32,422 nt of DNA from an uncultured Thermomicrobiales bacterium. GTDB lineage: Bacteria > Chloroflexota > Chloroflexia > Thermomicrobiales > UBA6265. The notes beneath the pieces are model-generated. The model searched no databases. It saw only the letters and a list, made by a program, of their open reading frames with translations, and was not told the DNA's origin. Location of the stretch: assembly GCA_902806325.1 (NCBI GenBank), contig CADCWE010000031.1, forward strand, positions 80,112-112,533. The letters are read 5' to 3'. This document shows, one piece after another, positions 1,517 through 6,427 of the stretch (the stretch's first letter is position 1; the number at the start of each line of letters is the position of its first letter). A program made the translations under genes and the position numbers.

Positions 1517-1576
1517 GCGACCGGTGCGGCGCCGATGGGAGCGCCGCCGACGGCGCAACTCCCGGAGCACTTCACC

Positions 1577-1798
1577 GTGGACACCGCGATCAGTCTGGTC
1601 ATGATCATCATCTCCATCGTCCTGATCCTCGTCATTCTGCTCCAAACCAAGGGGTCGTCGTTCAGCGGCGCGTTCGGCGGCGACACCGGCTCGATCAACC
1701 GCACCCGCCGCGGCGTCGAGCGGACGCTGTTCCAGTTCACGATCGGCATCACGGTGGTCTTTCTCCTGCTCGCCATCGTGACCAGCCTTCGCGGCTGA
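1577..1798 (+). CDS. secG: Preprotein translocase subunit SecG
   Basis: Two hydrophobic helices around LLQTKGSSFSGAFGG; GTG start at 1577 (ORF is open back to 1535). Confidence 0.88.
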   Translation: MDTAISLVMIIISIVLILVILLQTKGSSFSGAFGGDTGSINRTRRGVERTLFQFTIGITVVFLLLAIVTSLRG

Positions 1799-1923: not shown

Positions 1924-2160
1924 ATGGCAGGACTTGGATGGCAGGAGTTGACGATCATCTTGGTGATCGTCATCATCATCTTCGGCGCCGGCAAGCTGCC
2001 GGAAATCGGTGGCGCGCTCGGTAAGGGCATCAAGGAGTTTAAGACCAACTCCAACGACGACGATGCCCTGCCGGGTGGTTCGACGACCACCGCCTCCACC
2101 ACGACCCGCCGCCAGGAAGAGCCGGTCGCCCGCCGCGAGATCCGCGCCGACGAGATCTAG
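1924..2160 (+). CDS. tatA: Twin-arginine translocase subunit TatA
   Basis: [43 protein letters not shown] aggagga upstream. Confidence 0.95.
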
Positions 2161-2222: not shown

Positions 2223-2372
2223 TTTGTCCATGACTAGGTCTTCGCGCTTCTCGTCGTCGCGGAAGTAGCCGAGGAACTCGGTCGAACCGGGCGTCCCGTT
2301 CGCGCCGACCGGCGTCGCGCCCGGCACCTCGCCCATCGCCTCGACGAAGGTGATCCGGGTTCTGGGGTACAT
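2217..2372 (-). pseudogene. Small ORF or frameshifted C-terminal half of the upstream small protein (MYPRTRITFVEAMGEVPG...)
   Basis: ATG overlaps the upstream stop (TGATG); ORF continues through the terminator to 2157, so the native 3' end is unclear and 2217 is arbitrary. Confidence 0.35.
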
Positions 2373-2530
2373 CAAGGCCGCGCCCCTTCGGTCACATACG
2401 CCAGCGCTTTTCCGTCCCGCTTGCGGATATTTCGGAGCAGCAAGGTCGTTCGATGTGGGTCCGGTAGTGCATCCATATTGGCGAGAATCGGTTCCTCGCC
2501 GACGAGGTGGACGATGACGGATAACGCCAT
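2372..2530 (-). CDS. Small conserved-looking protein downstream of the kinase gene; possibly a frameshifted N-terminal half
   Basis: MALSVIVHLVGEEPILANMDALPDPHRTTLLLRNIRKRDGKALAYVTEGARP; same strand and directly downstream of the kinase. Confidence 0.45.
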   Translation of the reverse strand: MALSVIVHLVGEEPILANMDALPDPHRTTLLLRNIRKRDGKALAYVTEGARP

Positions 2531-2584: not shown

Positions 2585-4714
2585 CTACGTTCCGCGGTGG
2601 ACGGCGTAGTTCTTGCCACCCGAGCTCCCGAAGACCACGTGATCCGCCGTCACCAATGGCTTGACGACGATCGGCCCGGCCGCGCCAAAGCGCCAGTGCA
2701 CCGTGCCGTCGGCTTGATTCAGGCACGAGAGGATTCCGTCCGTTCCACCGACGTAGAGCGGTTCCCCGTCGGCGACCGCACTCGATGTAGTCAGGCAGCA
2801 GAGGGTCGTTCGGCAATTGATCGCCCCGCTCGCCACGTCGAGGGCGTCGAGCGCGCCGTGCGCCGATCCGACGTAGGCGGATTGATCGACGACCACCGGC
2901 GACGCAATCACCGCTTTCGGCGTCTGGTGGGTTCAGAGCAGCTTCCCGGACTCCGCGGCGACGGCCCGAACCGCCCCGTCGCAGGCGCCGACCATGACCG
3001 CCTTGACCGCCAAGCAGGGCGAGGACACCACCGGGGCGTTGACGTTCAGCCGCCATCGGAGCTGACCCGTCCCGCGGTCGACGCTGTAGAGGTATCCGTC
3101 GTCGCTTCCGAAGAGGACCCCGCGCTCGCACACCAGCGGGGTCGATCGCTCCGGTCCCCACGTCCGGTACCGCCACAGCACCGCGCCGCGGACCCGCTCC
3201 AACCGGTAGACGAAGCCATCGTCGGAGCCGATGGAGTACGACCGATCGTCCATCGCCGGCGAGGACCGGATCGGCGTCGTGCTCCGCAACGACCAGACCG
3301 ACCGTCCCTGCTGCCGCGACGCGACGTAGGCGTTGTGGTCCTCGCAGCCGAACATGACAAGGTCGGCCGCCGGCTGGGGACGCGAGACGACCCCGCGTCG
3401 GATACGAAACATCCACCGCACCGTACCGTCCGTCTCGTCGATCGCGTAGAGGTTGGCATCGTACGATCCGACGTAGATCGCGCCCTCTGCCTGAGACGCC
3501 GACCACCGCACCTCGTCGTTGGTCGCGCAGACCCAGGACAAGCGCTCGTTCCCGGCCATCGGCGATATCGAGTCCGGGGTCAAATCGGCCGGAACGACGA
3601 GCAATCGGCATCCGCTGGCGAACGACCGGTTCGGCGCCGAGACCGCGCCGCCGGCCGGTTTCACACCGCGCAAGGTTTCCAGCGCCGCGACCAACTCGTC
3701 GACCGACCCGTAGCGATCGTGCGGGCTGTGGGCGACGCGCTTGAGGATCAGCTGGCCGAACTCCGGCGGCACGGCCGGATTGAGCCGGCGCGGCGGTCGC
3801 TGGACAAGGGTGAACGGCGTCTCCCCGCGGTGATCCGATCCGGTGATCAGGTGGTGGAACGTGGCCCCGTAGGCGCAGATGTCGCCCTGTGCGTCGGCGA
3901 TGCCGCGGTACTGCTCCGGCGGGGCGTACCCTTCGGTCCCGATCATCGTCCCCTTCTGCTGGGGGGCGGAGGCGCGGGCGATGCCGAAGTCGACCAAGGT
4001 CAACGATCAGTCGACCAGGATCATGATGTTGCTGGGCTTGAGATCCCGGAAAATGTTCGGTTCTGGCTGCTGGACGTGCAGGTAACGCAGGATCTCGCAC
4101 GGTTCCAAACTCCTCTGGAGCAGCGTCGGTTCCGAAAACGGCTCCCCCCGCTGGGCCAGCAACGACTCGAGATCGTTGCCCAAGATCAACTCCAGCACCT
4201 GATAGATGGAGCCTTGGGCCTCGAAGAAATCGTAGATGCGGGGGATCGCCGGGTGCAACAACGTCGCCATCAGCGCGGCTTCGCGCTGAACGTGGACGAG
4301 CCGCATCTGTCGCACCCGGGCGTCGTCGCCGAGATCAAACATCACTTTGACCGCGCAGAGCCGGTCCACGCCCAAGAATCGGAAGTTCCTCGTCCGGTAG
4401 ACGGTGCTCATCCCGCCGATGCCGAGCACGTCCAAGACGTGGTAACGGCCTCGGAGAACCGTGCCCGGCTTGAGCACGTTGGGACGTCCGGGCGCAGCGG
4501 AGCGGCGGGAATGATCGTCGCCGTTGGTCACCGCATTAGCCGGAACCTCGGTTCTAGGAGCGGAGACCGACGCGGGCTGCTCCGATGTTCCGGCCCGAGG
4601 CCGGGGGAATGGTCGTCTCGTGGTTCTCGTTCCCGCCTGAGCGGCCAGGTTCGTCGCGACGGGCTCCACCCCATTAGAGGCGCCGATTGAGCCGGCCGGA
4701 AGGCACTTCGCCAC
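2585..4714 (-). pseudogene. Serine/threonine protein kinase with C-terminal PQQ (beta-propeller) repeats, interrupted by two in-frame TGA codons
   Basis: Kinase motifs GIGGMSTVY, AVKVM, FRDLKPSNIM, VDFGIAR, GTEGYAPPEQY; PQQ-like repeats (IYVGSYDANLYAIDETDGTVRW, VLFGSDDGYLYSVDRGTGQLRW). Three ORFs (4007-4714, 2933-4003, 2585-2911) lie in one frame, separated by TGA at 4007-4009 and 2933-2935. Confidence 0.85.
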
Positions 4715-4892
4715 TCATCTGACCGACTTGGTGCTTAAGGACCGGGCGACCGGCCGCCGTTGGAGGGACCGCGCCGGGCAGGAAGCCGGTCGGGTTGTTG
4801 GCGCGACCCACCGCCGCTATCATCGCGGTGCATGGCGCCGGGATCCCGGCCGCTCGTCCCTCGATTCCCACGACATCCCGCCCGAGGATTTG

Positions 4893-5720
4893 ATGGCCCA
4901 AGACGACCGACGCATCGCCACCGATGTGCGCCACCAGCAGCCGGTCGTCGCCGACCAGGGAGTCGTTCCGGACGACGCGTTTCGCGTCCCGATCGCGGGC
5001 GACGAGGCACCGGTTCCCCCCCAAGCCCGATCCAGGCGACGCGGCCGTGGCGCGCTGCGCGAGGTGGTCGAGACCCTGTTCCTGGCGCTCGTCATTTTCG
5101 TCGCGGTGCGGTTGGTCGTCCTCAACTTCCGGGTCGACGGGTTGAGCATGAGCCCGAACCTCGCCAACGCCGAGATGTTGCTCGTCAACCGCAACGTCTA
5201 CTTCCACTTCGACGCCAACCGTTGGCGCAATCTCCTGCCCGGCGACGACCGCGAAGGCGAGGACATCGTCTACCTGTTCCACCCCCCGGAGCGGGGCGAC
5301 ATTATCGTCTTCAACCCCCCGGTCGGCGGTCCGTCCAAGCCCTACATCAAGCGCGTGATCGGCATCCCAGGGGACCGGGTCACGTTCGCCAACGGCGACG
5401 TGTTCATCAACGCCGAAGTGCTGCCGGAGGACTACATCGAAGACGGGATCACCGAGTGCCCCAGCTCCTCCAGAAACTGCGACCTTGGGGTGATCCCGGA
5501 CGGCAAGATCTTCGTCCTCGGCGACAACCGAAACAACAGTTCGGACTCCCGCAGCTTCGGGCTCGTGGACGTGGACTCGATCATCGGCAAAGCGTGGATC
5601 ACCTATTGGCCAGCCGACGACATCGGGTTCGTCCCCCACGAGGACTACCCCGGGATCCCCGACTCCGCCGATCGCGGCACGGCCGCCGCATCCGGGATCG
5701 GTCCGCGAAAACCGGGCTGA
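4893..5720 (+). CDS. lepB: Signal peptidase I
   Basis: TM helix, VDGLSMSPNL (Ser), YIKRVIGIPGD (Lys), LGDNRNNSSDSR. Confidence 0.95.
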   Translation: MAQDDRRIATDVRHQQPVVADQGVVPDDAFRVPIAGDEAPVPPQARSRRRGRGALREVVETLFLALVIFVAVRLVVLNFRVDGLSMSPNLANAEMLLVNRNVYFHFDANRWRNLLPGDDREGEDIVYLFHPPERGDIIVFNPPVGGPSKPYIKRVIGIPGDRVTFANGDVFINAEVLPEDYIEDGITECPSSSRNCDLGVIPDGKIFVLGDNRNNSSDSRSFGLVDVDSIIGKAWITYWPADDIGFVPHEDYPGIPDSADRGTAAASGIGPRKPG

Positions 5721-5866
5721 ATCGGATGGTGCCCCACCGGGCGGGGATGTAGAATAGGGACCGGCGGACGAACCGCCGGCGCGACGCACCTCAGAACCCA
5801 GCGATCCACCCATCCTCCCTTCATCGCGGTCTCTGGGCAGTCGGGTGACACCGAGAGGGCCTGCCG

Positions 5867-6427
5867 ATGATCGAGACGGTCGTCGAAAGTATTCGCGTCA
5901 GTTTGATGACGCAACACCGCGTCGTGATCCTGAAGGAAGTTCAGGGGGAACGGCACCTTCCGATCTGGATCGGCCCGTACGAGGCCGAGGCGATCGCGAT
6001 GGAGCTCCAGGGGGTGGCAGCGGCTCGCCCCTTGGCCTACGATCTGATGCGGTCCCTGATCGGGGACCTCGGCGGAACCGTCGACCGGATCTTGGTCACC
6101 GATCTGTCGCAGGACATCTTCTACGCCAGGATCGTGATCCGGCAGAACGATCGCTCGGTCGAGATCGACTCCCGCCCCAGCGACGCGATCGCCCTTGCCG
6201 TCCGCGCCCAGGTGCCGATCATGGTCGCCGAGTCCGTGATGGACCAGGCCGGCGTCGCCCTCGATGGCGATTCCGACGACGAAGAAACCGCGGCCCTGCC
6301 ACAGCGAGGCCGCGACCGGGAACGCGATGCGTCGCGCGAGCGCGTCGACGACGAGCAGCTTTCGGCCTTCCGCGACTTCATCAACACTCTGGACCTCGAC
6401 GATTTCGACAAGAAGCGGGGGACCTAG
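5867..6427 (+). CDS. DUF151/bifunctional nuclease family protein
   Basis: LPIWIGPYEAEAIAMEL, RPLAYDLM, IDSRPSDAIALAVR. Confidence 0.92.
   Translation: MIETVVESIRVSLMTQHRVVILKEVQGERHLPIWIGPYEAEAIAMELQGVAAARPLAYDLMRSLIGDLGGTVDRILVTDLSQDIFYARIVIRQNDRSVEIDSRPSDAIALAVRAQVPIMVAESVMDQAGVALDGDSDDEETAALPQRGRDRERDASRERVDDEQLSAFRDFINTLDLDDFDKKRGT

Follow-up and report, generated by a model that had tools for sequence, protein, structure and literature searches.

A Ser/Thr kinase/beta-propeller pseudogene and its broken small neighbor in an uncultured Thermomicrobiales bacterium

Background

Two described kinases share their architecture with the gene family considered here. AfsK of Streptomyces (PMC1262709) has a kinase domain followed by a C-terminal PQQ-repeat propeller, and RqkA (DR2518), a quinoprotein kinase of Deinococcus radiodurans, is built on the same plan, with its kinase activity being stimulated by PQQ and by DNA ends (PMC11007091). 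As for the ways in which bacterial genes die, Salmonella pseudogenes display nonsense mutations and small deletions between conserved flanking genes; among single inactivating events in bacterial pseudogenes, short deletions are the most frequent, and 346 of the 378 Salmonella pseudogenes carry one inactivating mutation (PMC2916853).

The locus described below lies in a 32,422-nt stretch of DNA from an uncultured Thermomicrobiales bacterium, hereafter the window (assembly GCA_902806325.1, contig CADCWE010000031.1, positions 80,112 to 112,533). It almost certainly contains a real two-gene pseudogene, comprising a kinase-propeller gene and a small partner gene, which is the product of ordinary gene death. 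Nonsense mutations and conserved flanking genes make it similar to the Salmonella cases, from which it differs in that here a two-gene unit is affected, with three inactivating lesions (two TGA codons in the kinase gene plus a frameshift in the partner) and missense erosion in addition. AfsK has the same order of domains; however, the Chloroflexota kinase is located between secG-tatA and lepB and is accompanied by the small partner gene. The AfsK equivalog model NF053615 yields 109 bits with the window read-through and 180 bits with the intact ortholog from genome G011, far below its cutoff of 1300 bits, and therefore we do not file the Chloroflexota family as AfsK. RqkA, which is marked by PQQ binding and a DNA-damage role, belongs to another phylum and is an active kinase, while the window copy appears dead. 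Among the solved structures, 7eq5 and 7dxn, annotated as “membrane associated protein kinase with beta-propeller domain”, are matches to the profile.

Results and Discussion

The locus and its orthologs

The window genome (G000) is a 4.17-Mb draft in 273 contigs, 93.6% complete. The features of interest are as follows, with coordinates counted from the first letter of the window:

1535..1798, plus strand: secG-like gene, intact by translation, found in the same position in relatives
1924..2160, plus strand: tatA-like gene, intact by translation, convergent neighbor, also present in the relatives with empty slots
2250..2530, minus strand: second pseudogene, a small partner gene of about 95 aa with an ATG at 2530, recognized by two half-matches in different frames to the intact G011 and G006 partners
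2585..4531, minus strand: Ser/Thr protein kinase pseudogene with a C-terminal PQQ-type beta-propeller, delimited by its frame, Pfam domains and the start of an intact ortholog (L025:5112)
2813..2815, minus strand: TGC (Cys) at a propeller position, Trp in 20/20 aligned orthologs
2933..2935, minus strand: premature TGA within a propeller repeat, Trp in 20/20 aligned orthologs
3875..3877, minus strand: TGC (Cys) in the GDxYAxGAT motif, Tyr in 20/20 aligned orthologs
4007..4009, minus strand: premature TGA in the RDLKPSN-to-DFG interval, Gly in 19/20 aligned orthologs and Arg in one
4728..5720, plus strand: signal peptidase I (lepB) ORF, intact, divergent from the kinase

Gene order is conserved on either side of the kinase, with yvcK-gapdh-pgk-tpi-secG-tatA on one side and lepB, a bifunctional-nuclease-like gene, nuoE, nuoF and an ornithine-cyclodeaminase-like gene on the other. 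We take the neighbor beyond lepB to be bifunctional-nuclease-like (bfn). No tRNA or Rfam elements were found in the window. A strong kinase match is present in 24 of the 61 genomes of the order, including the window genome, and 20 orthologs in the same order occupy the tatA-lepB interval; in the alignment every one of them is open at both TGA sites. Intact orthologs are therefore present at this locus, the identity to G011 being 57-59%. A “Chloroflexia bacterium” MAG (L025) is the nearest named record in which an ortholog occurs; L025 and G011:C27, both 21299 long, are in all likelihood one contig and were counted once.

Lesions in the kinase gene

Translation of the ORF at 2585-4714 on the minus strand yields a single frame with two internal stops, at codons 236 (4007-4009) and 594 (2933-2935), and a terminal TAG at 2585-2587, in agreement with a first-pass annotation made from the letters alone, which had described a kinase/PQQ-repeat gene interrupted by two in-frame TGA codons without any indel. 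While the frame stands, the start at 4714 assumed in that annotation should probably be moved downstream: the start of the intact ortholog corresponds to a GTG at about 4531, so that 4532-4714 probably lies outside the gene, and for G011 and G051 the reported in-frame stops probably sit in such upstream sequence as well. From the probable GTG start, the pseudogene would measure 648 codons plus the TAG.

The kinase domain (PF00069) spans the first TGA, and the PQQ/beta-propeller repeats, supported by matches to PF13570 and PF13360 and to propellers in the PDB, span the second. The Pkinase score is 62 bits for the first fragment and 97 bits once the stops are read through, and that of Beta-prop_ACSF4 likewise rises from 120 to 172 bits. 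GIGGMS, AVK, FRDLKPSN and DFG are all legible in the read-through translation, and the first stop separates them: the 235-aa first fragment holds the glycine loop, the AVK lysine and RDLKPSN, while the DFG and the activation segment follow the stop, and the fragment is therefore not a complete kinase. Gly and Trp, which had been predicted for the two TGA positions, are what the orthologs contain there, save for the single Arg, and the suspected erosion of a Trp in GAINCRTT and of a Tyr in GDICAYGAT proved to be real at 2813-2815 and 3875-3877. Comparison with the orthologs revealed no frame-breaking or private indels in the 1.9-kb kinase gene.

A second broken gene next to the kinase

In relatives, the kinase is immediately followed downstream by a gene for a protein of about 85-100 aa. 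The corresponding gene in the window is also broken, which goes beyond the first-pass annotation and is new here. Its first frame runs from the ATG at 2530 to an early stop at 2372-2374, and the coding sequence resumes in another frame from about 2399 to 2250, which locates a frameshift to 2372-2399. Matches to the intact G011 partner and to the partner profile come in two halves, each in its own frame.

The partner protein has no match in Pfam or NCBIfam. A profile search recovered it in 131 of the 400 Chloroflexota genomes sampled (L052:9921-10184 is one example), and at 11 loci inspected outside the order no kinase of the window's family was found within about 1.5 kb of it. An AlphaFold2 model predicts an all-beta protein (pLDDT 78.8), for which the top Foldseek matches are mostly Sm/LSm proteins with probabilities mostly of 0.93-1.00; since the E-values are no better than 0.02, the weakly predicted Sm-like fold is treated as a lead, not as an assignment.

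Relaxed selection and the age of the decay

We compared the window kinase with its orthologs at columns that are otherwise invariant. In a leave-one-out count, 17 of 129 such columns are broken in the window copy versus 5 of 134 in the next worst ortholog (Fisher p=0.007, with columns treated as independent). Identity to outgroups is 0.437 for the window kinase versus 0.483 and 0.476 for its sisters G011 and G006, and outgroup-invariant columns are violated 19 times out of 137 in the window, as opposed to five times in each sister. No such asymmetry is seen in the pooled lepB, bfn, nuoE and nuoF genes, with 36/280 violations in the window versus 37/280 in G011. A purpose-written codon model, in which the window branch is set against the other branches, agrees with these counts: omega for the kinase is 0.135 on the window branch versus 0.028 elsewhere (LRT 8.97, p=0.003), as opposed to 0.019 versus 0.022 for the four neighbor genes (LRT 0.05). 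Because synonymous sites on the branch are near saturation, these omegas are only approximate, and it is the contrast between the kinase and its neighbors that is informative. The dN/dS comparison suggested in the first-pass annotation thus shows relaxed constraint on the window kinase branch, which is absent from the four neighbors.

From the 10-13% of invariant residues that have been lost, we estimate about 0.05-0.07 neutral substitutions per site. Decay to that extent should create 2.3-4.3 new stop codons in the kinase, where 2 are observed. Counted against gene death are the zero frame-breaking indels in the kinase, where neutral decay should have left several and where bacterial pseudogenes, with their many short deletions, would lead one to guess at more, and also the GC3 content, which has not yet drifted (0.874 in the kinase pseudogene versus 0.884 in the neighbors); one indel is present in the partner. 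The absence of kinase indels and the retained GC3 fit early decay, or a long period of weakened rather than absent selection, and such a phase preceding the stops would explain why indels are few. The earlier suggestion of a recently dying gene therefore holds as far as dying is concerned, while the age appears intermediate rather than very recent, at about 0.05-0.07 neutral substitutions per site with codon bias retained.

Gene death and its alternatives

The reading as a dying gene rests on intact syntenic orthologs, excess changes at invariant sites, raised dN/dS and unaffected neighbors. The first-pass annotation had left open whether the gene is dying or the consensus contains errors, and the intact orthologs to which it proposed an alignment (20/20 open), the relaxed constraint, the broken neighbor and the co-loss described below support the former. 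It is very unlikely that the gene is intact and that wrong bases entered the consensus during sequencing or assembly of the metagenome. That the source is a MAG of 273 contigs speaks for such errors, but they would have to include two nonsense changes, a frameshift and an excess of about 14 missense changes at invariant positions, confined to a stretch of 2.3 kb, even though the 19 other window genes (22 kb) contain no internal stop and 9 of the 10 window genes tested match an NCBIfam family nearly full length, the tenth being without a model. The probability that three random lesions would all land in the pair is about 0.001, and both the relative-rate comparison and the codon model limit the excess of changes to the kinase as opposed to its neighbors.

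Continued production of functional protein from the broken frame is even harder to accept. With TTG and GTG codons in frame after each stop, a kinase half and a propeller could in principle be translated separately, yet none of the 20 orthologs is split, the first stop interrupts the kinase fold between catalytic motifs, and invariant sites are eroded on either side of the stops, making a functional split gene extremely improbable. Recoding or read-through of TGA, whether by a reassigned code, selenocysteine or a suppressor, would restore a full-length protein and is suggested by both kinase stops being TGA in a frame that is otherwise open; we give it practically no credence. The conserved window genes hold no in-frame TGA, which serves as the terminator in 8 of the 19, and the lost residues differ (Gly and Trp), so that a single recoding meaning could not restore both; missense erosion accompanies the stops, and the frameshift in the partner is left unexplained. 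The differing residues, the partner frameshift and the unsplit orthologs led us to reject selenocysteine, TGA recoding and a functional split gene alike.

Returning to gene death, selection on the pair was relaxed in the window lineage, after which the kinase gene would have acquired its two nonsense mutations, the first severing the catalytic domain ahead of the DFG and the second severing the propeller, with one frameshift arising in the small gene. With the catalytic domain cut before the DFG, no active kinase should be made.

Co-occurrence and co-loss of the pair

In the order as a whole (61 genomes), 26 genomes have both the kinase and the small gene, including a contig-edge kinase fragment in G034 and a heavily decayed kinase in G059, 35 have neither, and none has one gene without the other. 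The corresponding Fisher p of 8e-18 is overstated, as it ignores shared ancestry, and the class with neither gene includes some incomplete genomes. In family f1, 3 of the 32 genomes have both genes and none has only one, while lepB is present in 29. In the f1 relatives that were examined (L101-L115), lepB comes directly after secG and tatA, and no remnants of the pair were found in these clean, empty tatA-lepB slots; independent losses within f1 are not countable, since the deep nodes of the seven-gene tree are poorly supported.

A separate case is provided by G059, a 99% complete genome from another family, in which the kinase at the same locus has many stops in every frame and its homology jumps between frames:

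L137 (G059:C109:22000-28100), about 4680-6101, minus strand: older kinase pseudogene

Its congeners G053, G055 and G057 have intact kinases, and its partner gene is eroded, yet open over most of its length. The decay of this pair is independent of the window case and older. The relatives thus form a series that leads from intact genes through early decay (the window) and late decay (G059) to complete disappearance (the empty slots).

The matched decay of the kinase and the small gene is evidence that the two work together, and a two-gene partnership is probable. By analogy with AfsK and RqkA, the PQQ-type propeller at the C-terminus of the intact kinase probably senses a ligand or a partner, and the gene immediately downstream would supply a small protein, all-beta in the model; as a working model, it is most likely that the kinase senses through its propeller and operates jointly with the small protein. 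It is conceivable, if rather doubtful, that the intact pair forms an obligate and as yet undescribed signaling unit of this Chloroflexota order, in which a small Sm-like protein, otherwise conserved phylum-wide without the kinase, would be the target or the mediator of the kinase, and which would be undergoing dismantling as a whole here, as it did separately in G059 and, already to completion, in most of f1.

The pseudogene itself is ordinary in kind, and it is the co-lost pair that is of wider interest. Its loss has been caught midway, between relatives with intact genes and those with empty slots; the joint decay provides an uncharacterized kinase with a concrete candidate partner and points to a phylum-wide small protein that belongs to no Pfam or NCBIfam family. 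As for the adjacent lepB gene, a tandem duplicate is present at the locus in some relatives (L025:2850-4666, L108:6718-8013 and L114:3688-5019), and the window genome has one lepB at the kinase locus and another copy elsewhere (G000:C142).
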